Shown one piece after another: positions 19,711-44,873 of a stretch of DNA of 64,000 nucleotides. Below the pieces are notes generated by a model, which had not been told where the DNA came from, did no database searches, and saw nothing but the letters and a program-made list of their open reading frames with translations. A program made the position numbers and the translations under genes. This DNA comes from Clostridiales bacterium (lineage in GTDB: Bacteria > Bacillota > Clostridia > Lachnospirales > WQUN01). Each line of letters opens with the position of its first letter. The stretch's first letter is position 1. The stretch is from contig JAISWZ010000143.1 in NCBI GenBank assembly GCA_031270945.1, positions 1-64,000 of the forward strand, read 5' to 3'.

Positions 19711-20277
19711 TCCTGAGTTGTCAAAATTTACATAGATGAAGGCTGCTTTGCCCTGCTATGCTTGGTTATGGATCAAATAACCATAGAGTTGTTCGCGTTT
19801 GCGGCCGATATAAGTAATGCAGAATAAGCGCATATCCCAAGACGAGTATGGGCATGCCCCAAAATTGGTTCATGGCTTGGAAAGCCTGGGGGCTTGATTC
19901 TTAAGCCCGAGGCAGCAGACTTTGCCGCGCCGTTGAACCGTCCGTGCGGTTGGGGAAGCCCAGCGCGAAAGCGCATGGGGCATTCCCGGATCTGGATTTT
20001 TGGCTATGCCAGCGAGTGAAAAGATTTGCGTTTTTCACTCAAATGGGTAGATGATTGCGAGCGAAAAGTTTAAGAGATTTTTCTTATGTTTTCGCTCGCG
20101 GATATATGCGCTCGCAGGATATGCTCGCGAATGGAACAATGCTCGCGAGCCGCCGTCTTTGCGAGCGGAAAGCCTTTCGCTCGCAAAGACAAGCGGGTTC
20201 CGGCGCGTCCCGCAGGGATAGCGCCAGGGCCGGAAATTGGGGTTGCGGACGCGCCCCTACTGGAGGGGGCCTTGCCT

Positions 20278-23200
20278 ATGAAGAGACTGCACTCTTGCGT
20301 CGCGATTTTCACGGCAGTGGTAGTCGCGCTGAGCACACTAGGCGCATACGCCGTTGGCAGAGCAGACGATTCCTTTGAAGACGAGATTGATGTTAGCACA
20401 GGTGTGGGAGCGCTCGCAAATTACGCGTCGGATGGCGCGATAGAGATAAAAGTTTCGGGATACTACACGCTGACGCAAAGCGGCGCGACTGCGCTGCCTT
20501 TGATTGTCGACGCAAAGGGCCCAGTGACCATAACAGCGAAAGCGCTCACAATCAAGCCGAACGACAGGTCGGCGCTGACCGTCGTGGCGGGAACCGCCCT
20601 GACCCTCGACTCGGAGGGAACAAGCGAGTTCAACGGAAGCCTTACCGCAACAGCGGGCATATACGTTGAATATGGGGCGAGCATCAACATCCATAGCGGA
20701 ACTGTCAAGGCTGCGGGCGGCAACAAGTCAGCGGGCATTGGAGGGGATCCGGACAAGCCTGTTGGCACCATAACCCTTTCTGGAGGCCAGATCGCTTCTA
20801 CAGGCGGCAATGGCGGCGCCGCCATAGGAACAGGCACAGCTTCAGCGGGAACAGAAATCTTTGCCCAGCCAATAACCATTGAGGGCTCGGCTGTAGTAAC
20901 AGCGGTTGGAGGCTCTGGCGCTGCCGGCATAGGCACAGGGCTCACAAGCAACAAATCTTTTGTCAGCATGGAAAGCATATCGATCACAGGCAACACTTTC
21001 ATTAGCGCAGAGGGCGGCTACGGAGGCGCGGGCATAGGCCTGGGACGCACAGCCGCAGGCATTGCCGTCTTGGGCGGAATAGACATATCCGGAAGCGCCA
21101 TGATACCCGCAGCAAAAGGCGGCGGCTCTGGAAGCGCTGGCATAGGCGGCGGATTGGATGACAAGGTGCTTGGCTCCAGCAACAATTTCGTGGATTTCAT
21201 AACGATTTCTGATTCCGCGTTCGTCTCAGCGGAAGGCAGCCCATTGGGCGCTGGCATTGGGCCAGGCCTCAATGGAGGTGTTGGGGAAATCGGGATAATT
21301 GGCGGAAAGGTCATGGCCAAAGGCGGCAAGGGCGCGGCGGGCATAGGCTCAGCCGTTTCCACGGAGCTAATCACATCCACAAGCTACGTTGAAACCATAA
21401 GCATCGCATCCTCAATAGTGAACGCTCAAGCGACAGGCGGAGGCGCTGGGATTGGAGCTGGCGCTCCTGAAAAGGGCTCAAGCTGGGTTGATTACATACG
21501 GATTTATGATGGAGCCATAGTCACTGCCACAGGCATCGATCCTGACGATCCATATTCTTCCTCAGGCGCTGGCATAGGCACTGGGCTTCCGAACGGATCT
21601 GCGCCGTCGAAAGTGAACAAGCTCGTCATAGAGGGCGAATCTACTGAGATTGACGCCAAAGGATCGCCGGATATAGGCTCGCTTAGCGCCTTGGTGCCCA
21701 TGGTTGCAAAATCTGGCACAATCAAGGCTGCAACATTCAACGACGTTTCGATACTCCAAGCGCTTGACGGCGAAGAGGAATTTTACGCAGTCTTTTACTT
21801 TGATGGCCACAAAAAGCCAGCAGTGTCATATGGACCTTACGTCTACCCGAAATCAACGGTTGACAGTTCACCTGTCATTGAAAGCTTTGGACCGATGGAT
21901 GAGGGGTTTGGAGGATGGATGTATGCCCCGGACAAGCCCTCGCTTACCACGAACGTGCCAATTCCCTTGGAAGCCTTGGCCTCAAGGATTATTATTGACG
22001 AGTATGCCAGCGGTTCATTCCTGGGGCTGGAAGCGCAATTCGCCGGCCCGACAAGCTCTCCGACTCCCACTAGCACGCCTACGTCGACAATAACGCCGTC
22101 TCCTACGGAGACGCCGACAAACTCTCCGACGCCGTTGCCGACAAACACGCCGTCGCCAACGGACTCACCGACGCCGGTTCCGACAAATACGCCGTCACCG
22201 ACAAACTCTCCGACGCCGTTGCCGACAAATACGCCGTCACCGACAAACTCTCCGACGCCGTTGCCGACAAATACGCCGTCTCCGACGAACTCACCGACGC
22301 CGTTGCCGACAAATACTCCGTCACCAACGAACTCGCCGACGCCGTTGCCGACAAATACGCCGTCACCAACAAACTCGCCGACGCCGGTTCCGACAAACAC
22401 GCCGTCGCCGACTAATTCACCGACGCCGGTTCCAACAAACACTCCGTCACCAACAAATACGCCATCGCCAACGAACTCGCCGACGCCGGTTCCGACAAAC
22501 ACGCCGTCTCCGACGAACTCGCCGACGCCGTTGCCAACAAACACACCGTCTCCCACGACCTCGCCGACGCCGGTTCCAACAAACACTCCGTCGCCAACGA
22601 ACTCGCCGACGCCGGTGCCAACAAACTCTCCGTCTCCGACGAACTCTCCAACGCCATCGCCAACGAACTCTCCAACGCCGTCGCCAACGAACTCGCCGAC
22701 GCCATCTCCGACAAACTCACCGACGCCGTTGCCAACAAACACGCCGTCTCCGACGAACTCTCCGACGCCATCTCCAACGAACTCGCCGACGCCGCAACCG
22801 ACAAACACTCCGTCGCCGACGAATACGCCATCTCCGTCGCCGACGAACACGCCATTTCCGACAAACTCACCGACGCCGGATCCGACAAGCACTCCAGAGG
22901 TGACAATCGCTCCGGAGCCGACAAACACTCCGTCTCCAACGAACTCACCGACTAGGGCGCCGTCGCCGACAGAAATTCCTGTGGCGCCGCCGGATTATTA
23001 TCAACCGTATACTCCTTTTACGCCTGCGTACGTCACAACTGCCCCAGTGCCAGCAAAGGAGGTAAAGCTGCCGCTTCTCTTGAGCGCGTCGAGCCCGTTC
23101 CCATCTAACGACAACTTCACCACAGTATCTGAAGAAATAATTGTGAAGCCAGAAAAGGGAAAGCAAAGCACTTTGCTCACAGTGGACATAAAGCCTGAAA

Positions 23201-24672
23201 AGAACCCGTCTCAAAAGGCAGCGCAGATTGTGGCGGTGGTCATATACGAGGATGGAACTTACGACTTTATCAATTTTGCGATAAACGATGAAGGACAAGC
23301 GATCGTGCCCGCGAAGGCAGGGCAAAAGATACAGATTCTGCAAGTGAAGCCGGATGTGGAGCTTGACGATTTCATATTGTCTCCATCTACTGAGCCATTC
23401 GTAAAGTACCTGGTTGACGCGGAAAACGGAGATACTCAGGAATACGGGAATTACATCCCGGAGCCGTTTGGGCCGATTTCCGATAGCTGGGACGATGTTT
23501 TCAAGCTTGACTTGTCAAACCCGTATGATCCAGCGTACCCGAAGAAGCTCGATCAAAGAAACCAGCTATACATTACCCAGTCAAAGGGAAAAACCGGATT
23601 CTCCTGGGCAGTCAGCGCTTTGGCGGCTGTGGAGACATTCCTTGGAAAGACCACAGGCCAAGTGGTTGATCTTATTGGCATGGCAAACGGATTTACTGGC
23701 CAGTCAACAACAGTCTATGATCCGCTGAAAATTGGATCAGGAAACTTCTCCATGAGCATAGCTTACATGTCAGAGCTTGGCGGAGGGGACAAAACTGGCA
23801 TGAAGGCTGCAAAGATGGCAAACGTCAAGAATTATGACGCTCTTGCCTACAACATCTCAAGGCTGAAGAAATCCATTACAGACTACGGCAGCGTGGTTTC
23901 AGCCATATCTGACAGCATCAAAGCTTACAACCCCAAGACCTTCGCTTACTACACAAGCGACGGTTCTGTCTCTCCGAACAACATGGTTCAGATCATTGGC
24001 TGGGACAACGAGTTCGCCGCCGCCAATTTCAAGACGAAGCCTTCGATAAACGGCGCGTGGATTGCCAGGGACAGCAGGGGATCATCCTTTGGTGATAGCG
24101 GATATGTCTATATCAGCTACGCTGACATGACTTTGGCCCAGAACCTCTATGTCGTAACGGAAGCGTCTGTGCCGGATGAGACTGAAAAGCTTTACTCAAA
24201 CTCGTCAGCTCCCTCAGGAGCGGTTAACTTCAATTCAAAGGTCGCTTGGTCAGCCAACACCTTTGAGGTCGGCAAGAATGAGAAGCTGAGCTCAGTCGCT
24301 TTCTTCAACGCCAACGAAAACATGGACTACGAGATCTGGATAAACGACCTGGGCCAGATGAAGGCCAAGAAGCTTTTGAAGGTTGGCAAGGTTGAAAACT
24401 CCGGCTACGTCACAGTGGATCTGGATTACCCCGTATCTTTAAGATTGTCAAAGTTCACGCTGTTTGTCAAGATGACAACCAAAGATATAGCGCACGTTAC
24501 TATAGAGAACACAGCGACAAACATTTCAACTGCAGCTGGAAGCAAAAGCACCAAGCCCGGAAGCGCGGACGCCGTAGCTTTTGTTAGCCGCGACGGCAGC
24601 CATTGGGTAGATTTGGCTGAGAAGGTGCTTGACGCGAATCTTTGCGTTAGAGCTTGGACTATACCGAAGTAA
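20278..24672 (+). CDS. Secreted multidomain protein: AGIG-repeat N-terminal region, PT-rich stalk, papain-like (C1) domain with substituted catalytic residues, C-terminal lectin-like region
   Basis: ATG 20278 ([25 protein letters not shown]) preceded by GGAGGGGG and in frame with the longer listed ORF (20086); AGIG/AIGTG repeats; [14 protein letters not shown] repeats; [19 protein letters not shown] ... [11 protein letters not shown] ... [21 protein letters not shown]. Confidence 0.8.
22060..22965 (+). repeat. Intragenic tandem repeat coding for [14 protein letters not shown] (about 42 bp, 14 aa)
   Basis: Direct reading of repeated PT-rich DNA. Confidence 0.95.
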
Positions 24673-24790: not shown

Positions 24791-25966
24791 TTACCATGCG
24801 CATCCCCCTATCATGCCTTTTATCCACATATCCCCTAGAGAACGGGTCTTGTAATACAGCATAGATTCTTCTGATAATCTTTCTATAGTGGATCCACTAA
24901 TTCCCTTTTCGGCAACTAAAACATCTTCGGGTGTAGATGTTAAAGTATCAACCAGCTCAATGGAATGAGTTGTAATTATCAACTGAAACTTAGAAGAACA
25001 TTCTTTAAGGCATGTGCAGATCTTTGGCATCATACCGAAATGCATGCCAATTTCCGGCTCATCCATACATATAACGGGTGATGGATTTTTGTTGTATATT
25101 ATGCATAACAAGCATAAATAGCGTAAAAGCCCGTCAGATATTCTTGATGATTGGACTGGATGAAATAGGTCGTTTTCTTTGATGAATATTTTAGCCGTTC
25201 CTCTGTCAATACTTACATTGATATCCGTTATTTTGTTATAGAAATATTTTATTTTTTCCAGTATCATCGATTTAATTCCAAAGAAATCCAATCGATTCAA
25301 AACAAGCGGAAGATTAGTAAAATTTTCATCCACGTAGTCACCTGGCATGTCAGTGCGAGTGGCGCTGTGAACTGATGAATTAAGTCCAAACGACCAGTTT
25401 GTATATATGTTGAACTTCTCCACTTCTCTGGAAAGCGTGGCTATTGCAGGATAATGATATACATCTCTCTTAAGTGACAATATTGATTGTCTAGAAGTAG
25501 GTTTGCCATCAACCAATTCTAGCAGTTCTCCATTTTTTTCTCTTACAAAAGATGTCTCGTTGTTACGAATATAAAAAGGATATTCCATTCCATTTTTATC
25601 TAGACCATTAATTTTTTCTTCAAGTAACTTAAAGTTGTAATTATCAGAAGTAAAAGAAATCTCATATTCTATTTCAGGAAAATCATGTTTTGATATTTCA
25701 TCTTTGTTTTCCAAAATGAAATCCAATTCAGCAGGCTGCAAAGTGTTATGCCCTTTGTACAGCAAATCCGCAGCATCACCAGAACCGCATATTTTAGCAG
25801 GAAATTCGTACAGCGAGGTTGCAGATCTAAGAACATCAATTGCGCTGAGCAAATTGCTCTTGCCACTACTGCTGCTGCCAATTACAACGTTCATCGGTTG
25901 AAGATCAATGACAACCGGTTCTGGCCCAAAACTCAAAAAATTGCTTAGTGATATGCATTTGATCAT
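24791..25966 (-). CDS. AAA-family ATPase (RecF/OLD-like nucleotide-binding domain)
   Basis: FLSFGPEPVVIDLQPMNVVIGSSSSGKSNLLSAID Walker A; ICMDEPEIGMH Walker B; LIITTHSIELVDTL. Confidence 0.85.
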   Translation of the reverse strand: MIKCISLSNFLSFGPEPVVIDLQPMNVVIGSSSSGKSNLLSAIDVLRSATSLYEFPAKICGSGDAADLLYKGHNTLQPAELDFILENKDEISKHDFPEIEYEISFTSDNYNFKLLEEKINGLDKNGMEYPFYIRNNETSFVREKNGELLELVDGKPTSRQSILSLKRDVYHYPAIATLSREVEKFNIYTNWSFGLNSSVHSATRTDMPGDYVDENFTNLPLVLNRLDFFGIKSMILEKIKYFYNKITDINVSIDRGTAKIFIKENDLFHPVQSSRISDGLLRYLCLLCIIYNKNPSPVICMDEPEIGMHFGMMPKICTCLKECSSKFQLIITTHSIELVDTLTSTPEDVLVAEKGISGSTIERLSEESMLYYKTRSLGDMWIKGMIGGCAW

Positions 25967-29139: not shown

Positions 29140-30282
29140 ATGCGTGATTTAACGGCATACCTAAATAATTGCGATAATAAGTTTCAAATTGCGCGAAATG
29201 GGTTTTACGTTGACAAGTCAAATTTGATAGCCTTTTTAAACTCAAGGATAGACACCGAAAAACGTTTTGTCTGTGTTTCAAGGCCTCGCGGGTTTGGCAA
29301 GACCATGGCGGCAGACATGCTTCAAGCCTACTATCAAATCGGAGCGCAAACGGAGACTCTCTTTTCCGATCTCAAGATAGCGTCGCACCCGTCTTTCAAT
29401 GAGCACTTCAATAAGCACAATGTAGTATTCATAAATGCATTGAATGCTTTGGTTGAAGTAGGCTACAATGCGAATAAAATGATTGAGCAACTAGAAACAG
29501 CCATTAGGAACGAAGTGGTTAAGCTAAATCCCGATTTGCCTTTGCCTGCGGATTACTCGGTGTACGAAGCGCTTCGAGCTGTGAAAGCTGCAACAAAAAC
29601 CGGATTTATCTTTATCATAGACGAATGGGATGGAATATTGCGCGATGACAGGCTCAATGAACAAGATCGCGCAGATTATTTAGAATTTTTAAGAGCGTTG
29701 CTTAAGGACAAAGAGTATGTAGCTTTAGCGTACATGACTGGGATCCTTCCAATCAAGAAAAACCGCAATCCGCTTAACATGTTCAGTGAATTCAGCATGC
29801 TCTTTCCGAGCAAAATGTCCGAATTTACAGGATTCACTGAACCGGAAGTGCAAATGGCATGCGAAGACCAAAATATGGATTTAGAAAAAATGAAGGAATG
29901 GTACGAAGGATATTGCCTGAATGGCGAGCGGGTTTTCTGCCCTTATTCTGTTTCGGAATCGATTTCCGCAAAAAAATATGCCAGCCACTGGCCAAAAACC
30001 GGGGCGTACCAAGAACTGGAAGACTATATATCCATGGACTTTGACGGGCTGAAAGATAAAATCAACAGCATGTATGCCGGGAACAAAGTGGCCGTCAATG
30101 CAAGCTCGTTTCAAAATGACATTTTTGATTTAAGGTCAGCTGACGAGGTTTTGACGCTGCTTGTTCATCTTGGCTATTTAGGCTTTGATGGCGAAACCAG
30201 CGAAGTCTTTATTCCTACAAAGGAAGTTAAGACGCAATTCGATTCTCTGCTTTCCGCTCCTGCATTGAACTTGAAAACCTAA
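29140..30282 (+). CDS. AAA-ATPase_like protein lacking the usual C-terminal PD-(D/E)XK nuclease-like domain
   Basis: FYVDKSNLIAFLNSRIDTEKRFVCVSRPRGFGKTMAADMLQAYY; FIFIIDEWDGILR; ends at SAPALNLKT. Confidence 0.8.
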   Translation: MRDLTAYLNNCDNKFQIARNGFYVDKSNLIAFLNSRIDTEKRFVCVSRPRGFGKTMAADMLQAYYQIGAQTETLFSDLKIASHPSFNEHFNKHNVVFINALNALVEVGYNANKMIEQLETAIRNEVVKLNPDLPLPADYSVYEALRAVKAATKTGFIFIIDEWDGILRDDRLNEQDRADYLEFLRALLKDKEYVALAYMTGILPIKKNRNPLNMFSEFSMLFPSKMSEFTGFTEPEVQMACEDQNMDLEKMKEWYEGYCLNGERVFCPYSVSESISAKKYASHWPKTGAYQELEDYISMDFDGLKDKINSMYAGNKVAVNASSFQNDIFDLRSADEVLTLLVHLGYLGFDGETSEVFIPTKEVKTQFDSLLSAPALNLKT

Positions 30283-33306: not shown

Positions 33307-35334
33307 ATGGATGCGGGTGCTGCCATGAATGAATCCATATGCCTAGAAGGCACAATAGAGCGCGTTATCTTCAGGAAAGAGACTTTTAGCGTGTTTTACC
33401 TTGATAGGGGCGATGCAAGGCTGACATGCAAAGGGAAGTCCCAACAGGAAGTCAGGCCCGGGGACAGAGTCTGGGTCACAGGCAAGTATACGAGCAACAG
33501 TGAGCTTGCCATTGAAAGCTTGAGAAAAGAGAGTTTGGCGCTGGAAGCGTACCTGTCGCAAGCGGCGGGAATGGACAGGGTTTTAAGCCGCGCTGTCGCG
33601 GATCGCTTCGGGGACGAGGCGCTGCTGGTTTTGGCTGAGACGCCAGATCGTCTGGTGGGGATAGCGGGGATCACGCAACCTATGGCCGCGCGATTTTGCG
33701 AATCGCTTTTGCGATGCGAGGATGACGTCCAGACGGTGTTGAAACTTATGGAATACTCTCCCGATCTGGCCTTTTGCAGGCGGATCGCAAAGGCTTATGG
33801 GACAAACATCCTGAATTCCGTAAAGGCCAACCCCTTCAAGCTTGTAGACGAGCTTAAGATCGGGTTTGAGGCGGCGGACGCCATAGGCAAGAAAGCCAAC
33901 CGTGAAAGCGAGCTATACTTCACGAATCCAAGACGCCAGAAGTTTGGCATAAAGCAGATATTGGAAGACGAGGCATTGAGGGGAAACGCTTGCGTTCCTC
34001 AAAGAGAGCTTGCCATGTCCGCATGGGAGCTTTTGCAGGTGCCTGAAAACGCTGTAGACAAGACCTTATGCACCCTTGAGGCCGAAAAGGTTGTCAAGAT
34101 GGATCTGGTTGGAAACGAGAAATGCGTATACCTGGGAGAACTGTACAAGACAGAGGCAAGCGTAGCTGAGATGGTCGCAAAGCTCAAGGGCGAAACTTTT
34201 GAGGCAAGCGGGATTGCGATAATCATTGGATCTGACAAGGAAAGAGCGAAATGCATAAAGCGGATGCTGGAGAGCACCACAAGCATAGACGCCAGGATAG
34301 CTGCGCCCACGAGCCTGTTGGCCCAAAGGCTTTCCGATTTGACCGGAGCAAAGACTGAAACTTACTTTGAGCTTATGCAAGAGGAAAGGCCCATTGGAGG
34401 AGAGCAGTCTGCCCGAATGAGGGGAGAGGCCAACCCCCTTGAGGGGGGCTTGGTTGTGCTGGACAAATGCGAATCAATGGATCTGGAGACGTTTCACGGG
34501 GTTTTGCGGGCTTTGCCAAGCGGAGCGAAGCTTGTTCTGTCAGGAGATCTGAGCCGGATACCAGGCGAGGGGCCAGGCCGGGTATTCGAATCCCTGGTTG
34601 AAAGCAAGCTTGTCCCTGTCATGCGGCTGGAAGACAATCCGGATTGCCCGGCAAAGATAGAAAGCTATCTCATAGGCGCTACTGGGCCTGGAATAGTAGA
34701 TAACGTTATATCCTTGGCGAAGGACAGGCTTCCCAACTACAAGTTCAGCGGACCAATGGACATTCAAGTGCTTGCGCCCGCCAGGAAAGGACCTTGCGGA
34801 TCTGAGAGCCTAAACAAGGCCCTGCAGGATGCGATCAATCCTCCAAAGGCGGGAAAAGGCGAAATTTGCTGCGGGAGCGGGTTCTTCCGGGAAGGCGACA
34901 AAGTGGTTCAGACATCAAACAACTGGAGCGCCAAATGGCAATCGGGCTTTGGCGTTAGCAAGGGAGAAGTTGGGATCATTGTATCCATTGACGCAAATGC
35001 TGTAACAGTCGAGTTTGGCAACAAGGAAGTTGAGTACCCCCTTAGGTCTTTGTGCGAGATAGAGCTGGCATACGCCATGACTGTCCAAATGTCCATGGGC
35101 CGCCAATACCGGGCCGTAATACTTGCAATGCCGGAAACGGACGAGCCTGCGCTTGGAAAAGAGCTTTTGATCGAAACGCAATGCTGCGCCTCCGAAACTT
35201 TGGCGTTTGTTGGCAACAAGACGAGATTTCGCGAGCTAGATAAAAGAAGCTCAAAATTTGCCTGCAGGTCTGCCCTGGCCGACCGGCTCAAAGCGGCTGA
35301 CGCAAGGCTCAAAAAGAGGATGGCTTACGTATAG
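33307..35334 (+). CDS. RecD2-like protein with degenerate helicase motifs (predicted pseudo-helicase)
   Basis: N-terminal OB/HhH region like RecD2 (AYLSQAAGMDRVLSRAVADRFGDEAL, AYGTNILNSVKANPFKLVDELKIGFEAADAIGKK); APTSLLAQRLSDLTG; LVVLDKCESMD; LVLSGDLSRIPGEGPGRVF; no GKT/S Walker A. Confidence 0.75.
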   Translation: MDAGAAMNESICLEGTIERVIFRKETFSVFYLDRGDARLTCKGKSQQEVRPGDRVWVTGKYTSNSELAIESLRKESLALEAYLSQAAGMDRVLSRAVADRFGDEALLVLAETPDRLVGIAGITQPMAARFCESLLRCEDDVQTVLKLMEYSPDLAFCRRIAKAYGTNILNSVKANPFKLVDELKIGFEAADAIGKKANRESELYFTNPRRQKFGIKQILEDEALRGNACVPQRELAMSAWELLQVPENAVDKTLCTLEAEKVVKMDLVGNEKCVYLGELYKTEASVAEMVAKLKGETFEASGIAIIIGSDKERAKCIKRMLESTTSIDARIAAPTSLLAQRLSDLTGAKTETYFELMQEERPIGGEQSARMRGEANPLEGGLVVLDKCESMDLETFHGVLRALPSGAKLVLSGDLSRIPGEGPGRVFESLVESKLVPVMRLEDNPDCPAKIESYLIGATGPGIVDNVISLAKDRLPNYKFSGPMDIQVLAPARKGPCGSESLNKALQDAINPPKAGKGEICCGSGFFREGDKVVQTSNNWSAKWQSGFGVSKGEVGIIVSIDANAVTVEFGNKEVEYPLRSLCEIELAYAMTVQMSMGRQYRAVILAMPETDEPALGKELLIETQCCASETLAFVGNKTRFRELDKRSSKFACRSALADRLKAADARLKKRMAYV

Positions 35335-35637
35335 CAAACCTACGTTCGATCAAGAGCAAAGCGGCTTGCTTAATCCCTTAAATCCCTAGTCTCAGGCTCA
35401 AAATTGCAAGGCGGTTGGCTGTCTTAGCGCGTTAGGCGCGATACAGCGAAGGCCAGGGGATTTTGAAGGGCCTGGCTTGCTTGCAAAAGGCTAGAATCAT
35501 TTGGCCTGGCGGGTTTTGTCGGATTGCCAGCATAAATTTCTTCAAGCTCGCAAGCCTTGTCTCTAATGTTTGCAGATTGGCGCGTGTTGATATATAATAT
35601 AACCACCAAGGCGGTCTTTGCTTGCGAAGACCGCCTT

Positions 35638-35692
35638 AGTGCATATCCCAAAATTAATTCCAAGGCCATAACGGAATTTTGGGATATGCACT
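35638..35692. repeat. Palindromic dispersed element, 55-bp short form without the long inner stem
   Basis: AGTGCATATCCCAAAATTAATTCCAAGGCCATAACGGAATTTTGGGATATGCACT. Confidence 0.9.
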
Positions 35693-35975
35693 CAGTGCAT
35701 TCCCAAGACAAATTCCAAGGCCATTACGGAGTTTTGGGGCTTTTTGTGCGCCGTTAACGCGATTGAAGCATGCGCTGATTTTTTTGTAGCGGATTCAGGC
35801 GCACTTGAGTGAATTGAGTGAAAAAAGCGGTTCTTTTCACGCTGGCGCAAGACATATTCTTGAGAGAAGAGCCAGGCGCTTGGCCTGGCTAAAATATAAA
35901 TATAAAAATAAAAAAACCAAAAAACAAAAAACAAAAATGCAAGCACTTGCTGGCTTTTTGGGGGGAGGCGACGGC

Positions 35976-38906
35976 ATGGCGCAAGCAGAAAGCTATATCA
36001 GCAACAAAGCCAACAAGTACTTTATCGCCAACGGCGAGGAGCGCCTATCGCTGCTGGCAGCCATTCCTTCAGAACGGTACGCGGGCTTCTTGGATCTGAA
36101 GCTGAAGCTCAAGTCGGTTGAAGATCGGGTTTTGGAGACAATAGGGGCATGCCCGAAAAAGAGGCTTGACATGCAGCTGAAGCCCATTCTTGACGCGTTT
36201 GGACTGCCCTGGCTTTACAGCGAGATAAAAACTGTCAGGGACATAAAGTATGCCGTAAGCGAAAGAGACATCCGCTTCCTTCTGGGCATGGCGATAGCGG
36301 CGAGCATTGACTACGCCACGGCTTGGAAGGCTGGGTTCAAGATATTTGATCCTGTCTGGGCGGCTAGCCTGGAGTATTCGTTTTCAAAGTACATTTTTGC
36401 GGCTGACGTTGAGGAGCTCTTCGGAGAGCGCGTTACGCCTGGAAGCAGCTCGCGTTACCGGCTTGAGTCGGATCTTGGCGCCTACATCCATGAGGACATT
36501 GAGCTTGATGTCCGAAAGGCGGTAGGCCTTTGGTCTGAGATGGACGGCGGTGACGACTCGCCAGGGAGGCTGGCTGAAATATGCCAAAGAAACAAGGTTG
36601 AGCCTGGGATCCTGGCGTCCGCGTATTGCTCTTTGGCTGGCGGCGGGGTTGGCATGACGTTGACGTCACAGGCGCTGGCTATAGCGATTGAAGAGGCCAT
36701 GAGAAGCCAGGAACAGGATGAAAGCGATCCTGGCGAGGCTGAGAAGTTCAGGTTTCCAACTGAGCTTCCGGATGGGCTTGCGCCGTCAATGCCTCTTGAC
36801 GCGTTGGAGATGCCCCCGAAGTACCTGGCGGCGCTTAGCAAATCGGGGATAGAGACCCTAGGGGATCTAGCCAGTTACAGAACATTTGACATTCCGCAGA
36901 TAACAGGGCTTAAAGAATTGGGCGGCTTGGCTTACGCCAACATATGGCAGATAATCCCCCAGCTCAAGAAGCTGTTCAAGGAGGGGGTTGCCATGAAGGC
37001 ACCGTCCACAACTACTGTTTTGAAGAAGGTAGAGCCAAACCTTCCATATCAAGTTTCTCCGGTCACATCCATATACTCCTTGGGGCTTTCCTCGGCTTGC
37101 GCCAGGATTCTCAGGGACTGCGGCATACTGGACGCCTCCCAGCTCTCGCGCTTGAAGAAGGGGCACGTGAACACTCTCAAGAGCAGCGGGGTTGACGAGA
37201 ACGCCATTCTTCTTGCCGTAAAAACAGCCTCACAGCTTCGAAAGATTTTCGAGGAGCGGGAAACGGCGGAAAAGAAGGCCGCCCCCGCGCCAAAGCCTTG
37301 GGATCAGGCTGAGTTTGACGAGACGATGAAGCGGATACCCAAAAGAAGGCTTGTCCGCCCGGTAAGCGCTCTGGTGTTGGCAAAGCCGGGGCTAAGCGAT
37401 CCCAGCATTCCTGAAAGCACTCTCATAAAAGACTTGGGGGACTTGATTTCTGAAGACAAAGATCTGGAAACCCTGGACAAGATCAAAAGCGTGGCCCAAT
37501 TTGCCGCTTCAGATCTGAGAATGATCATATGCCGGAGGCTGGACTTGTTCTTCATGGGAGAAAGGTGCCTCCAGACTTTTCCCAAAGTCAAGGAATGGAT
37601 CATAAACGCGACTGACCTGCCTGTCAAGGGAAATGGTGCGCTTGAGCAGTTTCGGGCAAGGCTTGGGCTTGAGATTTCCAAGATAGCCATGGATCCGATT
37701 CCCTTGGTTTGCGCCGACGTTGGATCCCCATACTGGGCGACTGATGATGACGTGTCGCAGTTTTACAGCCCGGTCAAGGAAAACGCTTTATGGATGGCCA
37801 TTCTCCGCACTCCAGCCCTTTACTCCTCTCCCGCCATGGTCAGGGATACTGCCAGAAAGGGATTCATACAAAAAGACGCCGCCCCTGACATGGACAAGGC
37901 GGCTGCTGTGATAGACACTTTTCCTAGCTTGGGAAGCGAAAAGGACTTCGCGCAAAGAATAAAAAAGATCTCAGAGCGGGAGAATATAAGCCTCCTGGCT
38001 CTTAGCATAGAGTTTGAGCGAAGCTACAACAGGGGCGGAGCGGGCGCCTGCTTCAAGAAGTCGATAGGCACCCGGGAGTTCATGGAGTTGGCGTTTTCAA
38101 CCTTCATGCCCGCCAGGTTCCAGCGGCTTTCAAGAGCTGCGCTTGAGGAGTTTCGCCGCCACGTGGAAAGGCTCTCCCTTGGCGCTGTAGTAGCGCCCCT
38201 TGATGACGGAGCGCTGTCTAGATGCATCGAAGCCTTTTGCCTGGACTGCGGCGACGGAACGCTTTTGCAGTCCCAAGAGCTGGAACCCCTGGCTGACAGC
38301 GTTAACGCAGTCTGGAAAGAGATGCAAAGCGAAGCACTTGACTTCATCCTGGTCGAAACAGCTTTTGGCAAGTACGGAGACCGCATAGCCTTGCTAAACA
38401 ACCCAACCCTTTTTGCCGAAGCCATGAAGCACTGCGCTGGCGCCTGCGTTGCCGCCGGATCCTTCTCGTTCAAGCCCCAGTACCAGGTGGCGCAAGAACT
38501 CGAAGCCTTGTTCTGGGAATCCCTGGTTTTAAGCGAAGAAGAGATCCTGTCCCAGTTCCCTGGCATGACCCCTGGGGCTTTAAAGTTCTTTGTCAGGTTC
38601 CTGCCAGGCATCCAAGACGCCGGCAATAACTGGCTTGTGATGAAAAATGGGCTCCCAGGACTCAGCCACGGCCTGGCTGAAGAAATGAAAAAAGCCGCCA
38701 AGCGAGCCCCGATCTCCGCCGAAATGGTCTGGGAACACATGCTCCTTAGATGCCCAAGCTTCGCACTCGCAAAAGGCATAACCAGCATTGACCGCGCGAT
38801 TATAGCCTTCTGCGCCGTCGCCGGCGGATTCGAGCTAATAGGCTCAAAAGTGTCGCTAAAGCAAGGCCTCAATGACGAATCGATGGAAGTTCAGTTCGTT
38901 TTGTAA
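35976..38906 (+). CDS. Giant helix-hairpin-helix protein 1, with alpha-CTD-like units
   Basis: In frame with listed ORF 35805; ATG 35976 has GGGGGGAGG 7 nt upstream. Units such as MPLDALEMPPKYLAALSKSGIETLGDLASYRTFDIPQITGLKELG; N- and C-terminal regions align by eye with 39341..44350. Confidence 0.75.
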   Translation: MAQAESYISNKANKYFIANGEERLSLLAAIPSERYAGFLDLKLKLKSVEDRVLETIGACPKKRLDMQLKPILDAFGLPWLYSEIKTVRDIKYAVSERDIRFLLGMAIAASIDYATAWKAGFKIFDPVWAASLEYSFSKYIFAADVEELFGERVTPGSSSRYRLESDLGAYIHEDIELDVRKAVGLWSEMDGGDDSPGRLAEICQRNKVEPGILASAYCSLAGGGVGMTLTSQALAIAIEEAMRSQEQDESDPGEAEKFRFPTELPDGLAPSMPLDALEMPPKYLAALSKSGIETLGDLASYRTFDIPQITGLKELGGLAYANIWQIIPQLKKLFKEGVAMKAPSTTTVLKKVEPNLPYQVSPVTSIYSLGLSSACARILRDCGILDASQLSRLKKGHVNTLKSSGVDENAILLAVKTASQLRKIFEERETAEKKAAPAPKPWDQAEFDETMKRIPKRRLVRPVSALVLAKPGLSDPSIPESTLIKDLGDLISEDKDLETLDKIKSVAQFAASDLRMIICRRLDLFFMGERCLQTFPKVKEWIINATDLPVKGNGALEQFRARLGLEISKIAMDPIPLVCADVGSPYWATDDDVSQFYSPVKENALWMAILRTPALYSSPAMVRDTARKGFIQKDAAPDMDKAAAVIDTFPSLGSEKDFAQRIKKISERENISLLALSIEFERSYNRGGAGACFKKSIGTREFMELAFSTFMPARFQRLSRAALEEFRRHVERLSLGAVVAPLDDGALSRCIEAFCLDCGDGTLLQSQELEPLADSVNAVWKEMQSEALDFILVETAFGKYGDRIALLNNPTLFAEAMKHCAGACVAAGSFSFKPQYQVAQELEALFWESLVLSEEEILSQFPGMTPGALKFFVRFLPGIQDAGNNWLVMKNGLPGLSHGLAEEMKKAAKRAPISAEMVWEHMLLRCPSFALAKGITSIDRAIIAFCAVAGGFELIGSKVSLKQGLNDESMEVQFVL

Positions 38907-39340
38907 AAATCGACAAAACTTTGACGCTAAAAGTTAAAATGCGCGAAATTTTGGATTTTTGGGTTTGCGTAGGAAGGGAAAAAGATGTATACTGAAGAGG
39001 ATGAATTGTCTGCCATCGGGTGCATTTTGCCCGATGGCGGCAAGCATGAATTCAAGCCTCACTGCAGCGCAACAGGCTTCTTCTCTTTGCGTTCCAGTCT
39101 TTACGCCATTACCCTTACGCCGCGTAAGCCCATTGCCATGAAAAACACGCTTTTTTTCTTACAGGATGTTTTCTTGCAGAACGTCGTATTGCATATTTTC
39201 TGATAAAATAATCATACGCTTATGACCTTTCGCCGCATAAGCCATTGCCATGAAAAACACGCATTTTTATAAAAACGCCTAATCCAGGCGCCGATGGCGC
39301 CCCAAAACCCAAACCAACACCAACCCCGGGGAGGAGCAAC

Positions 39341-42300
39341 ATGTCGGAATTGGTTAACAGATCGAGGTTTTCACTAGAAAGCCCATTGTCAGAGCTGCCG
39401 GTTGCCTCCCGCTGGATGGGTGAGCTAAACTCCAGAGGAGCGTATTGCATTTGGCAGCTTCTGCTATTGGACAATGCGCAGTTTTCGGGCTTGGGGCTTT
39501 TGACAGCTGCCACAGCCAAGAGGCATGTGACAACGGAGCTTGAAAAGTCCAAAGCTCTCTCTCCCAGCAACTTGAAGCTTTTGTTTGACAGCATTCCGCC
39601 AGCCAGATTGGAGAGAGACGCGATAGCCTACCTGGGGCCGTTCGGAAGAAAGGCGCCAGCGCTTGAGGTAGTGCTTGTGAAAGACATGGCAAACGTCCTG
39701 AATTCGTGCGAGGACAAGACGGAGCTGGCGCTTTGCCTGCATCTTTTGGGATTGAACTATAAAAGCGCGTTGTTCAAGTCCAGCAAGCTTTTTGATCCAT
39801 ACGGCATACTTTCGGCTGAAATGGACAATGAGATCGTGCTTTTCCCGTGCGAGATGGAAGCGTACTATGGAATGGGATTCCTAAACTTGGCCAGGAACTC
39901 GAGAATAGGCAACTTTGAGTATCTGGCGCTTTACGACGCTTACTGCCGGAGAGCGGAAAGCCATGACTTCCTGGCCGCGAAAAACATAATCGCCAGATAC
40001 CCGACAAGCATGACCCATGCAAACGCGATATCAAGGCTTCAGAATGATTGCGAGGATCTTTCCCCAAGAGCCATGGCCGCTGTTTTCCTGAACTATTTTT
40101 CGCCTGTCGGAGACGGCTTTTCCAGGTACGGCGGAAACAGGGATCGAACCCTTGCGCCAACCTTAAGCTATGAGATCCAAAAAGGGCTGCACCCAAAGTC
40201 CAGGGCGCCTATTCTCCAAAGCGATGACACCCCTATAGCCTTGATGCAGTCAGTGGCGCCCCAGCCTGAGCTCCCGGTTTACCAGGAGCCGCCAAAGGGC
40301 AAGGGGCCGGTCTTTGCGGAGGAGCATGCGCCAAAAAAAGGCTCAATGGTTAAGTTCATGCTTCCAGCCAGCATATCCGAGTTCACCCTTGTCACAGAGC
40401 TTAAGCTTGCGACAAGCGTCCAAAGGGCGCTTTTGAGAAACGGGATCAAGACTGTAGAACAGCTGGCGAACATGGACGAAAAGGCAATAGCCTCGATCTT
40501 CTACCTGTATGAGGAAGACGAGATCGAATACACAAGGTCAGCCGTTGACATTGTCAGAAGAACCCTGCAAGCCAACGCGACCGAGTATATCAGCCTGAAG
40601 ATTTCCCTCTCGAACAACATCACCACGGACAAGCAGGCCGCAACTGTCCTTCCAAAGGCGCTTGCCGCAAGGCTTGCGAGCTATGGCATAACAAAGGTTT
40701 CGCAAATAGCGGATGACAACATATGCAGCTGGCTTCTGGACGCTGTGGCAAACAAGGACTCTGTTGCCGAAGCGCTGAACATGGAAAAGATAATCCGGCT
40801 TATCAGAAGCAGGATCCCTGGAATCACAGCTGCGTTCAAGCATAAGCTGGCAGACGAGAAGGCGGCCAGGACAGCCCCCCAGACTAGGCTGGAGCAGCAT
40901 GCCGAAACGATTCCAGAGCAGGATCCAAAGGGGCCATTGAATCCGTTAAAGCGGATGTTCCCGAACTTCGATATGAGCGTTTATTCGATTGTACAGAAAA
41001 ATACGCCCATGCCCTTCTTTGGGGTAAGCGTGGCTCACCAGAAAGCCTTCGCAAGGGCTGGAATCACTACAGCCGGAGAGCTGTCCCTCCTTACGAAAGA
41101 CCAGCTGTCTCTTCTAAAGGACTACCTGTTCCTGACAGACGCAGGGGTGGAAGCGCTTAGAAGAGCGTCAGCCGAGCTTTATACAAAATTTCAGCAGGAT
41201 CGCCTTGACGAGAAAGAGAATTCTTACATACCGAAAACGCCTGATTACGGCGCGGTGACGCATGACACCCTGATCTCCGCCCTTGGGCTTACTCTGTCGT
41301 GTGAGAAGGCGCTCACCGACGTTGGGGTTCATACAGCTTTCGATCTTGCGCAGCTCAAGGATTCTGCAATCCAAACCCTCAGGCTCTTCAGGAGAGGCGA
41401 CGAGATAGCGGAAGAGGCCAAGAAGGCTTCATCCTCCCTCCAGGAACTGTTTAACGCGTACAAAGCCTCGCTGAACAAGCCCGTTGCTGAGCCCGTCCAG
41501 CCCAAAGCCGCCCCGATCAAGCCGCCAGAAGAGCCGCCAAAACCTGCCAGAAAAACCGAAGAGATTGTCCCGCTCAAGAAGTTTACGAAAAAGCAGCCCG
41601 ACAAAACCTTTGATGCCCAGCCTGAAACCCATGTCTCAACTATCGGGCTCCAGATCAAGGACATCCTTCTCCTAAGGAATTGCGACGTTCGCACTGTTGC
41701 GGAGCTGGCCGCGATCAGCAAGAGCCAGATAGCCATTGTCAGGGCGAACAAGAGCGCCATTGAGGCGGATGACGTCCTGGACTGGAAGTACGTGGCAATG
41801 AACATCCTCCGGAAGAAGGAGCTTGGATATGAGCCCATTTCTCCGGACACAAAGCTTGAAAACATTCCCGGCCTAGGCTTCCCTCTTGCCGCGCTCGCGC
41901 AAATGGGCGTCACAACCGCCTTTGATCTCGCCTATTCTCCCAGGATGGAGAAGATTGCCACGTATGTTCTTTCCGTCAAGATCCGCAAGGAGATAGTTAG
42001 CGCCTCAGGGTCGATGCGCAACCTCCTGCAGGCCATGAGAGATGACGAGGAGAAAGCGGCAAAAAAGGCGAAAGAGCCAGATTTTACAGATAAGGTTTTG
42101 AGAGAGAAAGCGATTCAAGAGCAAGCGGCTGCAAAAGAGCGGGAGGCAAAAGAGCAAGCGGCAAAAGAGCAAGCCGAAAAAGAGCAAGCCGCCAAAGAAC
42201 TGGCCGCAAAAGCTCAAGCCGAAATAGAACAGGCCGCAAAAGACCAAGCGGCCAAAGACCAAGCAGCCAAACCCCGGGCCGAATCCATAGCCCAACCCAT

Positions 42301-44350
42301 AGTGAGGTCGCAAGCGTCCAAGATCGGCCCTCTTCAATTGCGAGCCTTGTCAAAGGCCAACCCGGATACCCCGATTGGGGAGCTGGGTTTCAGTTTGTAC
42401 TGCATGGCGACACTCAGAAGCAATGGCATAAAAACAGCGGAGCCGCTTGCCGCGATGTGGGACGGGCTTTTGCCGGTCTTCAACAAGTACTCGACATCCA
42501 TCAAGGATGAGATGAGCCGCGCGGCCAAGTACCTGCATGAAATGTTTGCAGATAAGGCTGTGAGTGACGCTTCTGCGGAAGTCAAGCCTATCGAAGTCGC
42601 TCCGGTGAAGCCTATCGAAGACGCACCAGCGAAGCCAGTTGAAGTCGCTCCAGAGAAGCCTATCGAAGTCGCGCAGACAAAGCCTGTCGAAACGCCGCCA
42701 GCTAAGCCCATCGAAGTGGCGCAGACAAAGCCTGTTGAAACGCCGCCAACCAAGCCTGTCGAGGTTGCACAAGCCAAGCCCATCGAAGTCGCGCCGCCCA
42801 AGCCCGCCGCCCCTGATCCCGAAGCCCTAGCCAAGGCTGAAGAAGTGCGCTTGATGGTAGAGCGCATGGAGTGCCCGGTTTCCCTGCTTCTAAAAACCCT
42901 GCGCATGACAACGCCATTCGCGGAGCTTGAAAACATGAAGATTCGTGAGCTCTCGACTGCAAGAAGCGCTTTGCAGCAAGAGGGGATGAAGCTGATCAAG
43001 CTTGCCGGAACGGACATAAGAGGGAAGCTTTTGGCCCAGATCGATGAGATGCTTGAGATAGAAGAGAAATTTTCCGCCAGAGCCCTTGAGGCTTCGATTG
43101 ACTGGATCAAGTCCGGCAACGAAATCAAGAGCTTCAGCTTCGTATACTCATTCTGCGACAGGATGAAAGTGAAGATAAAAAGGCTTGAGTTTGATCCCTT
43201 GCTTGCCGTGTGCTACCACTACGGAAAGACTGGCCTAATAACTTTCGAAGAGGTGAGGGACTACTTCAAGCCAGCCAAGCATGGAGACGCGTTCTTGGCT
43301 CTAGCCACAAGCGTCCAGCTAAGCGACGCCTTCAGCCTGAGCTATGACTCAGCCAGAAAGGTCTTCCTGGAAGAAGAGCTTTCGATTGTGCAAAGCCTCC
43401 CGTCTTTTATAGAAGACGAGAAAGCCGCCTTGGAAAATGCGGGGATAAAGGCTAAGCCCCAAGCGCTCCAAAACGCGTTCAAGCGGCTGTACAAGAAAGG
43501 CAAAGACGTGCTCTACAAGCTCAAAGCCAAGCCTGAAGAGCTGTGCGAATACGCCATAGGCAAATGGCCGGATGGCTGGCTGACCCTAGAAGACTTCGGA
43601 AAGTTCAGGATATTCGCTGAAGGATTGGTTTACAAGGACATCCTCCTTCCCTCAAGCGACCAAGCCCTTTGGGACATGCTTTCTCCCTACAGCATGATCC
43701 ACGAAGGAATGCTGGTGTTCAAAAACAGCATAAGATCAGCTGATCTCAAGAGGCTTTGCAATGAGATGAAAAGCTGGGGCAATTTTGTCCTGCTTGAAAA
43801 CGCCCAAAAGAAAGCCAAGAAAATGTTCGTGGGCCCCCTGGCTGAGTCCAAGGAAATGCTTGCCAAAGCCCTTGAAGAGCATGCAGGAGCGCAGGTGGTA
43901 GGCGGTTACATCTGCTTTGAGCCATTGGGAGCGCTGTCAAAAAGAGCGGAAGCCTTTGTGGCAAAAAAAGTGATCGCCACCGAAGAAGAGCTCATGCAAG
44001 AATTCAAGGAATTTCCCAGAGAAGTGCTTGACGGCGCCTTGACTGGCGCGGCTTTTGTCAAAAAGAACGGCTGCTTCGCCTCAGGTGATCTGGCAGGAAG
44101 CCTAGGCAACGAGATCGCCCGAAACATCAAGCAGCTAGCTTCGATAGCCCCAGTCAACAAGGAAGCGCTGGCTGAGCATCTGACACTTGCCTATCCCAAG
44201 TTTGCGCTGCAAAAAGGCCTCTCTGGCTGCGACAAGATAATGGCGGCTGTATGCTTCGCATTTGACGGGTTCAAGATAAATGGAGATTGCCTGGAGATAG
44301 AAGGGCTGGAAGAGCGCAGGAATGTGATGGCGGTCGCGTTTGATGATTAA
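39341..44350 (+). CDS. Giant helix-hairpin-helix protein 2, about eight alpha-CTD-like units plus charged and Pro-rich linkers
   Basis: GGGGAGGAG RBS; repeated [hydrophobic]-G(I/V)-T-..-L units (ALLRNGIKTVEQLANM, AFARAGITTAGELSLL, ALTDVGVHTAFDLAQL, LLRNCDVRTVAELAAI, ALAQMGVTTAFDLA, TLRSNGIKTAEPLAAM). Confidence 0.8.
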   Translation: MSELVNRSRFSLESPLSELPVASRWMGELNSRGAYCIWQLLLLDNAQFSGLGLLTAATAKRHVTTELEKSKALSPSNLKLLFDSIPPARLERDAIAYLGPFGRKAPALEVVLVKDMANVLNSCEDKTELALCLHLLGLNYKSALFKSSKLFDPYGILSAEMDNEIVLFPCEMEAYYGMGFLNLARNSRIGNFEYLALYDAYCRRAESHDFLAAKNIIARYPTSMTHANAISRLQNDCEDLSPRAMAAVFLNYFSPVGDGFSRYGGNRDRTLAPTLSYEIQKGLHPKSRAPILQSDDTPIALMQSVAPQPELPVYQEPPKGKGPVFAEEHAPKKGSMVKFMLPASISEFTLVTELKLATSVQRALLRNGIKTVEQLANMDEKAIASIFYLYEEDEIEYTRSAVDIVRRTLQANATEYISLKISLSNNITTDKQAATVLPKALAARLASYGITKVSQIADDNICSWLLDAVANKDSVAEALNMEKIIRLIRSRIPGITAAFKHKLADEKAARTAPQTRLEQHAETIPEQDPKGPLNPLKRMFPNFDMSVYSIVQKNTPMPFFGVSVAHQKAFARAGITTAGELSLLTKDQLSLLKDYLFLTDAGVEALRRASAELYTKFQQDRLDEKENSYIPKTPDYGAVTHDTLISALGLTLSCEKALTDVGVHTAFDLAQLKDSAIQTLRLFRRGDEIAEEAKKASSSLQELFNAYKASLNKPVAEPVQPKAAPIKPPEEPPKPARKTEEIVPLKKFTKKQPDKTFDAQPETHVSTIGLQIKDILLLRNCDVRTVAELAAISKSQIAIVRANKSAIEADDVLDWKYVAMNILRKKELGYEPISPDTKLENIPGLGFPLAALAQMGVTTAFDLAYSPRMEKIATYVLSVKIRKEIVSASGSMRNLLQAMRDDEEKAAKKAKEPDFTDKVLREKAIQEQAAAKEREAKEQAAKEQAEKEQAAKELAAKAQAEIEQAAKDQAAKDQAAKPRAESIAQPIVRSQASKIGPLQLRALSKANPDTPIGELGFSLYCMATLRSNGIKTAEPLAAMWDGLLPVFNKYSTSIKDEMSRAAKYLHEMFADKAVSDASAEVKPIEVAPVKPIEDAPAKPVEVAPEKPIEVAQTKPVETPPAKPIEVAQTKPVETPPTKPVEVAQAKPIEVAPPKPAAPDPEALAKAEEVRLMVERMECPVSLLLKTLRMTTPFAELENMKIRELSTARSALQQEGMKLIKLAGTDIRGKLLAQIDEMLEIEEKFSARALEASIDWIKSGNEIKSFSFVYSFCDRMKVKIKRLEFDPLLAVCYHYGKTGLITFEEVRDYFKPAKHGDAFLALATSVQLSDAFSLSYDSARKVFLEEELSIVQSLPSFIEDEKAALENAGIKAKPQALQNAFKRLYKKGKDVLYKLKAKPEELCEYAIGKWPDGWLTLEDFGKFRIFAEGLVYKDILLPSSDQALWDMLSPYSMIHEGMLVFKNSIRSADLKRLCNEMKSWGNFVLLENAQKKAKKMFVGPLAESKEMLAKALEEHAGAQVVGGYICFEPLGALSKRAEAFVAKKVIATEEELMQEFKEFPREVLDGALTGAAFVKKNGCFASGDLAGSLGNEIARNIKQLASIAPVNKEALAEHLTLAYPKFALQKGLSGCDKIMAAVCFAFDGFKINGDCLEIEGLEERRNVMAVAFDD

Positions 44351-44511
44351 AAGAATGCCTTAAGCGATTGAAGCAAGAAACTTGAATAAAACTTGAAACA
44401 AACGCTTGAAGCAAAAGAACAAAAGATTAAAACAAAATCTTGAAGCGTAAAACAAAAGACTAAAACAAGACAAAATCGAAATGCAAGCCCAAAAGCCAAG
44501 AAATAAAACAA

Positions 44512-44543
44512 GAAAAAGCTCTGCCGGAGGCAGAGCTTTTTCT
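44512..44543 (+). terminator. Intrinsic terminator after HhH protein 2
   Basis: AAAAAGCTCTGCC-GGA-GGCAGAGCTTTTTC. Confidence 0.85.
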
Positions 44544-44873
44544 TTTGATCTTTGATCTTTTGGTTTTGAACTTTTTGTTTTTGATCTTTTTGTTTTTGAT
44601 CTTTTTGGTTTTGATCTTGTTGTTTTTGATATTTTGGTTTTTTTGAATGCTCTTTTAAATATGATCTTTTAAATATGCTCTTTTTGATTTTTGCTTTTTT
44701 AGTTTTTTGCTCTTTCAAGCTTTTGATTTTTTCGAGTTTCTGATCTTTTAGATTTTTTAGTTTCTAAATTTTTTTAAGCTTGCAAATTTCATGCTGACTA
44801 AGTTTAATGATTTCTAAGCTTTTCTATTTTAATCTAAATCATTCTGTATTAGTCCATATTAAGCCAAAAACCC

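Follow-up and report, generated by a model that had tools for sequence, protein, structure and literature searches.

RecD2-like pseudo-helicase next to two strongly diverged members of a mainly clostridial alpha-CTD/winged-helix family linked to PbeA and BrxP genes

The DNA analysed here (the window) is a stretch of 64,000 nucleotides from a Clostridiales MAG (G000; 8.8 Mb, 76% complete). As the sequence-only reading had noticed, three large genes lie on the plus strand between an MFS gene and a gene for a P-type Ca-ATPase, both on the minus strand. P1 (33307-35334, +) encodes 675 amino acids, with the next ATG, at position 33325, as a possible alternative start. For P2 (35976-38906, +; 976 aa) we prefer the ATG 3' of GGGGGGAGG; the TTG at 35805, which is the start in the ORF table, was judged less likely. 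P3 (39341-44350, +; 1669 aa) has GGGGAGGAG 5' of its ATG, and the ribosome-binding sites of P2 and P3 are both good. The position-wise GC content of the three genes (0.56/0.40-0.43/0.60-0.64) is the same as that of the neighbouring genes, thus they appear to be normal genes. They are separated by gaps of 641 bp (P1-P2) and 434 bp (P2-P3). The first gap contains, at 35569-35641, a promoter-like site (35569-35598, 10/12) and a 15-bp hairpin (35604-35641), and downstream of P3, at 44510-44544, there is a hairpin resembling a bidirectional terminator; these features are consensus matches only. The promoter-like site and the hairpin between P1 and P2 suggest separate transcription, and together with the second hairpin and the length of the gaps they make it doubtful that the three genes form a single operon.

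Some other genes of the window and of the genome deserve mention in their own right. An AAA_21 ATPase gene about 7 kb upstream of the trio (24791-25966, -), which shows no link to it, matches the PADLOC model HEC-01A (4e-107) and is a candidate defence ATPase; an AAA-ATPase-like protein (PF09820) is encoded at 29140-30282 (+). The 1582-aa product of the gene at 3786-8534 (-) carries MBG domains as well as three S-layer homology domains, and the codon-position GC of this gene differs from that of its neighbours. At the end of the 1528-aa protein encoded at 20086-24672 (+) are a papain-family protease and a lectin-like domain. On another contig of G000 (C368; L131, 976-10455) four co-directional genes (1088, 193, 934 and 925 aa) form a cluster that, from the sequence, resembles a DUF499/DUF1156/PLD-helicase defence system. 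The genome of the sister species G001, the only other member of the genus available for comparison, is 7.7 Mb long; other genomes of the same family have mostly 2-3 Mb.

P1 has the architecture of RecD2, an SF1B helicase (TIGR01448): the domain order OB, HHH_RecD2, SF1 core and SH3_13 is common to both, with the SF1 core degraded in P1. The TIGR01448 model gave 302 bits, under its cut-off of 500, and among the single domains OB_YrrC matched weakly, below its cut-off, AAA_19/AAA_30 partially, and HHH_RecD2 and SH3_13 were also detected. In an alignment with three intact RecD2 proteins of the genus as reference, P1 did not have intact Walker A, motif II, motif III or motif VI: GGPGTGKT of Walker A corresponds to GSDKERA, DESS of motif II to DKCES and GDADQ of motif III to GDLSR, and the sequences HKSQG and TRAK to QMSMG and CCAS. 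Unlike RecD2, P1 is thus without any ATPase/helicase motif, as had been read from the sequence at the outset, and it is about 100 aa shorter. In G001 an intact 779-aa RecD2 adjoins an ortholog of the same MFS gene (the two MFS proteins are 50% identical over 410 aa), which makes P1 most likely the syntenic ortholog of this RecD2. The two proteins are 37% identical; in the non-catalytic blocks of P1 the identity is 34-49%, and in three of these blocks 43-49%. A further intact RecD2 is encoded elsewhere in G000 (L022). With the motifs all lost and the non-catalytic blocks conserved, the pseudo-helicase reading of P1 is preferred over random decay. P1 is best explained as a second RecD2 copy, which kept the DNA-binding OB, HhH and SH3 parts and is not expected to hydrolyse ATP any more.

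P2 and P3 are paralogs; over 420 amino acids at the C-terminus they are 24% identical (E 1e-24). They had been described as sharing both termini; this holds for the C-terminal region, whereas the likeness of the N-terminal regions is weakly supported by sequence. Both contain helix-hairpin-helix (HhH) units like those of the C-terminal domain of the RNA polymerase alpha subunit (alpha-CTD), two in P2 and at least six in P3. With PF03118 (cut-off 23.8 bits) P3 scored 42.1 bits and P2 17.7 bits, the latter below the cut-off. In a held-out test, in which every unit was scored by a model built without that unit, seven of the eight units scored above all 1000 shuffles. The exception was unit 1 of P2 (aa 264-328, 36765-36959, +), the weakest by sequence, whose 8.8 bits were reached by one of the 1000 shuffles and which also gave the PF03118 match of P2; unit 2 (aa 356-425, 37041-37250, +) scored 30.3 bits (0/1000 shuffles). 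In P3 the units lie, all on the plus strand, at aa 341-403 (40361-40549; the PF03118 match, 31.1 bits held-out), aa 547-618 (40979-41194; 22.2 bits), aa 636-705 (41246-41455; 44.7 bits), aa 755-826 (41603-41818; 18.8 bits), aa 833-900 (41837-42040; 16.8 bits) and aa 1003-1070 (42347-42550; 32.3 bits). PF03118 was the only RNA polymerase model that matched P2 or P3, and no alpha N-terminal domain precedes the CTD-like units, by which they differ from the alpha subunit itself; a separate rpoA-like ORF of 346 aa was found on contig C682 of G000. Searches of Pfam, NCBIfam, PHROGs and PADLOC found no catalytic domain in P2 or P3, which, together with the lost motifs of P1, agrees with the earlier view that none of the three proteins has a recognizable one.

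The AlphaFold2 prediction for P2 as a single sequence was uninformative (pLDDT 37). With an alignment of 41-42 rows the region 262-976 was modelled with a mean pLDDT of 76; it must be noted that this alignment was built from the same homologs, thus the model partly reflects them. Among solved structures Foldseek matched the model to alpha-CTDs (rmsd 2.5; TM 0.71-0.72 when normalised to the target). The sequence-only reading was right on the alpha-CTD-like HhH arrays. The C-terminal part of P2 (37734-38858, +) is predicted to be an array of about six winged helices (pLDDT mostly 80-95), for which Foldseek found the winged-helix arrays of SelB and UFL1; a search of a viral structure library gave no match at E <= 0.001. 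The C-terminal region of P3 (aa 1254-1648, 43100-44284, +) is, by sequence and profile comparison, a homolog of this region of P2 as well as of the winged-helix region in the wider family described below.

Single-sequence searches with the window proteins found nothing outside G000 except one marginal match, and pattern scans of genome contigs and viral contigs with P2 and P3 only also found nothing. A profile of P2 and P3 found a homolog of 1429 aa in G001 (contig C265), a three-row profile found a second one of 1043 aa (C48), and with a four-row profile 16 of 392 genomes, G000 included, gave matches, the best E outside the genus being 2.7e-27, in other Clostridia. A weak match in G009 (E 0.003) was rejected as a relative: the matching frame, of 848 aa, overlaps a gene for a Tex-like S1-domain protein. 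The family built from these matches is mainly clostridial and combines an alpha-CTD, a sigma-70 region-4-like HTH and a winged-helix array; most of the proteins have, by Pfam, the alpha-CTD HhH and/or the Sigma70_r4 HTH, the latter with the pattern T-L-x-x-I-G ... T-R-E-R-V-R-Q-I-E, and align over the winged-helix region. Scanning named genomes yielded 56 loci, to which viral contigs added one; one locus without a callable gene was left out of the context table, which has 56 loci. The hosts include Lachnospiraceae, Clostridium, Desulfosporosinus and Sporomusa, as well as single Spirochaetaceae and Nitrospira MAGs. No plasmid matched P3 or three relatives from the family. The class-wide tally of the family profile A5, 375 of 392 genomes, represents the alpha-CTD background of rpoA (E 1e-7 to 1e-11), and only matches well below these values were taken as family.

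When searched with a single model (hmmsearch), P2 matched the family weakly (E 2.5e-4, Z 100000) and P3 not convincingly (0.017), thus they are counted as members on the strength of profile-profile comparison, with the sister homologs serving as intermediates. With hhalign, P2 and P3 alone matched the family profile with 98.3% and E 1.4e-14 over 425 columns, and together with the sister homologs with 99.9% and 8e-33. A5, made without P2 and P3, in turn finds both G001 homologs (5e-31 and 2e-17). By winged-helix homology (E 1.4e-14) we classify P2 and P3 as highly diverged members of the family. The tree joins P2, P3 and the two G001 homologs in one clade (98/94), and the group around this clade also holds a Clostridiaceae pair (L071), the BREX-4-linked Sporomusa protein (L073) and a spirochaete MAG; the branches of P2 and P3 are long (1.8 changes per column), therefore this placement is provisional. 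The sigma-4 signature R-E-R-x-R-Q was present in 34 of the 47 scanned rows and in none of the four proteins of the genus clade. Two further members encoded by G000, on C379 (909 aa) and C573 (at least 801 aa), fall outside this clade, and the C379 protein has a variant of the signature.

In 22 of the 56 loci the nuclease-helicase PbeA is encoded directly downstream of the family gene (Dnd-Pbe), and in the longer loci of this kind the order is family gene, PbeA, then PbeC, PbeD, DndB, DndC and DndD; in G487 DndFGH lie upstream of the family gene. In five loci, Sporomusa acidovorans L073, L075, L076, L104 and the viral contig L127, the gene directly downstream is that of the PAPS reductase BrxP; three of them also have BrxC, and L073 has PglZ too (Type-4 BREX). 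The distance between the family gene and PbeA or BrxP is between -38 and +10 bp in 22 of the 27 pairs, and the two genes often overlap. The other 29 loci are solo genes or lie on short contigs; contig ends limit what the context table can show. One G000 member adjoins a DEAD/MZB helicase, and in G685 and G712 the neighbour is a GHKL-type ATPase, in G712 with a match to PADLOC PDC-M33A. The gene order in these two loci (L068 and L132) is family protein, GHKL-type ATPase and proteins of about 300 and 262 aa, which may represent another defence-like system with the family protein as a component. The solo genes of Clostridium (L097, L098, L099) and Desulfosporosinus (L114-L125) have recurring non-defence neighbours, which suggests vertical inheritance and another role. 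In L085, L092 and L094 an ORF of 75-76 aa between PbeA and PbeC occupies the place of PbeB. According to PMC6459918 and PMC10853773 the PbeB protein is small and for the most part disordered, and for this reason we rejected the idea that the family protein itself is PbeB (PMC10853773).

None of these defence contexts was found at P2 and P3. There are no PbeA, PbeC or Dnd genes among the genes of the window, and Pfam searches of 20 flanking proteins found no BrxP, BrxC or PglZ. A Pbe system in G000 was considered and rejected, with a PbeA query giving only a 28% partial match elsewhere; the MAG is 76% complete and may lack a locus of the Pbe or BREX kind.

The trio had been proposed to be a three-gene system, to be checked by genomic co-occurrence, and this was not supported. 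The two homologs in G001 are solo genes on separate contigs, with transport or housekeeping neighbours and away from the intact RecD2; no remnants of P2 or P3 were found behind this RecD2, and no convincing RecD2 gene adjoins any of the 56 relatives (the two similarities seen, of 58 and 35 bits, were weak and partial). Judged by one sister species and the wider family, the outcome is the one that the earlier reading had itself named as a refutation, and the trio is no conserved system. The idea that the three proteins form a functional complex, a pseudo-RecD2 platform with two HhH scaffolds acting on stalled forks or foreign DNA, draws on the adjacency of the genes on one strand, on the DNA-binding folds and lack of a recognisable catalytic domain in all three, and on the presence of a RecD2 ortholog and two family members in G001. 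The lack of linkage in G001, where RecD2 is intact, the absence of convincing RecD2 genes near the relatives and the gaps, hairpin and promoter-like site described above speak against such a complex, which we hold to be quite improbable. It is a real possibility, to which we give somewhat less than even odds, that the genes are chance neighbours in an inflated genome, P1 being a decaying RecD2 duplicate and P2 and P3 lineage-specific, drifting paralogs. The size of the genome (8.8 Mb, compared to mostly 2-3 Mb in the family), the second, intact RecD2 of G000, the dispersed homologs in G001 and the long branches all fit this explanation. However, none of the three reading frames is interrupted over its 675-1669 codons, their codon-position GC is normal, and the non-catalytic parts of P1 are conserved, which argues that the genes are not simply decaying.

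It is useful to compare P2 and P3 with described proteins. PglW of BREX type 2 has an alpha-CTD-like domain followed by three winged helices (PMC12839542), a combination similar to that of P2 and P3, and the unit of P3 at aa 636-705 matched the PADLOC PglW model (4.5e-11). Unlike in PglW, no NERD nuclease, kinase or iSTAND domain was found in P2 and P3, and they have no BREX neighbours. The DUF4007 and BrxA proteins, with three HTHs, are likewise non-catalytic multi-HTH DNA-recognition subunits of phosphorothioate and BREX systems; the available part of the same article mentions no alpha-CTD or sigma-4 part for them, and the likeness to P2 and P3 is one of description only. Type-4 BREX has, in that part of the article, five known components and a new one, none resembling the family protein. 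The genes upstream of PbeA (22 loci, in Lachnospiraceae and others) have the winged-helix homology and the alpha-CTD HhH in common with P2 and P3, but most of their products retain the sigma-4 signature and they lie next to PbeA, neither of which applies to P2 and P3. The gene upstream of BrxP belongs to the same family, and the tree group with L073 includes P2 and P3, which are not BrxP-linked. We found no description of an alpha-CTD/sigma-4/winged-helix family in the open-access literature, thus the wider family appears to be undescribed. The earlier statement that no system of this composition is known has to be modified: the family occurs within known defence operons (Dnd-Pbe and Type-4 BREX), P2 and P3 themselves do not.

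The reading we prefer, with a probability of roughly 0.6, is that P2 and P3 are diverged, non-catalytic DNA-binding sensors or scaffolds outside defence operons, either co-opted or drifting, beside the pseudo-helicase P1. They would be duplicated and strongly diverged members of a large DNA-binding family, whose PbeA- and BrxP-linked representatives are, judged by their operon position, most likely DNA-recognition or sensing subunits. In this genus P2 and P3 would have diverged outside the defence operons, with loss of the sigma-4 signature and, in P3, multiplication of the HhH units. Fold and family point to DNA binding, and the scaffold role suggested from the sequence is plausible on the same grounds: P2 and P3 are probably multivalent DNA- or nucleoprotein-binding scaffolds, in which the HhH units may contact the minor groove and the winged helices add avidity. 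The adjacency of P1 hints weakly at cooperation with P2 and P3. That the G001 homologs adjoin transport and other non-defence genes was counted against this best explanation.

It seems unlikely that P2 and P3 act on transcription, with the alpha-CTD-like and sigma-4-like domains mimicking the promoter contacts of RNA polymerase and thereby regulating or silencing promoters. Both DNA-binding modules that the family joins are familiar from RNA polymerase, and roughly one half of the 56 loci are not in recognised defence operons; however, P2 and P3 do not have the sigma-4 signature, and sigma-like HTH and alpha-CTD-like domains are described as DNA-binding parts of BREX proteins (PMC12839542). 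A bolder proposal, in our opinion highly doubtful, would see in the family an undescribed DNA-sensing subunit common to Dnd-Pbe and Type-4 BREX, and in P1-P2-P3 a nuclease-free module that coats or silences foreign or damaged DNA.

What is new in these results is a conserved, apparently undescribed gene that directly precedes PbeA in clostridial Dnd-Pbe operons and BrxP in Type-4 BREX loci, and whose product joins two RNA polymerase-type DNA-binding modules with a winged-helix array. If it is a shared non-catalytic subunit, the discrimination between self and invader in phosphorothioate-based systems would be testable by deletion of a single gene. P2 and P3 would then illustrate the extent to which a subunit of this kind may diverge away from these operons, beside a helicase which has lost its motor.
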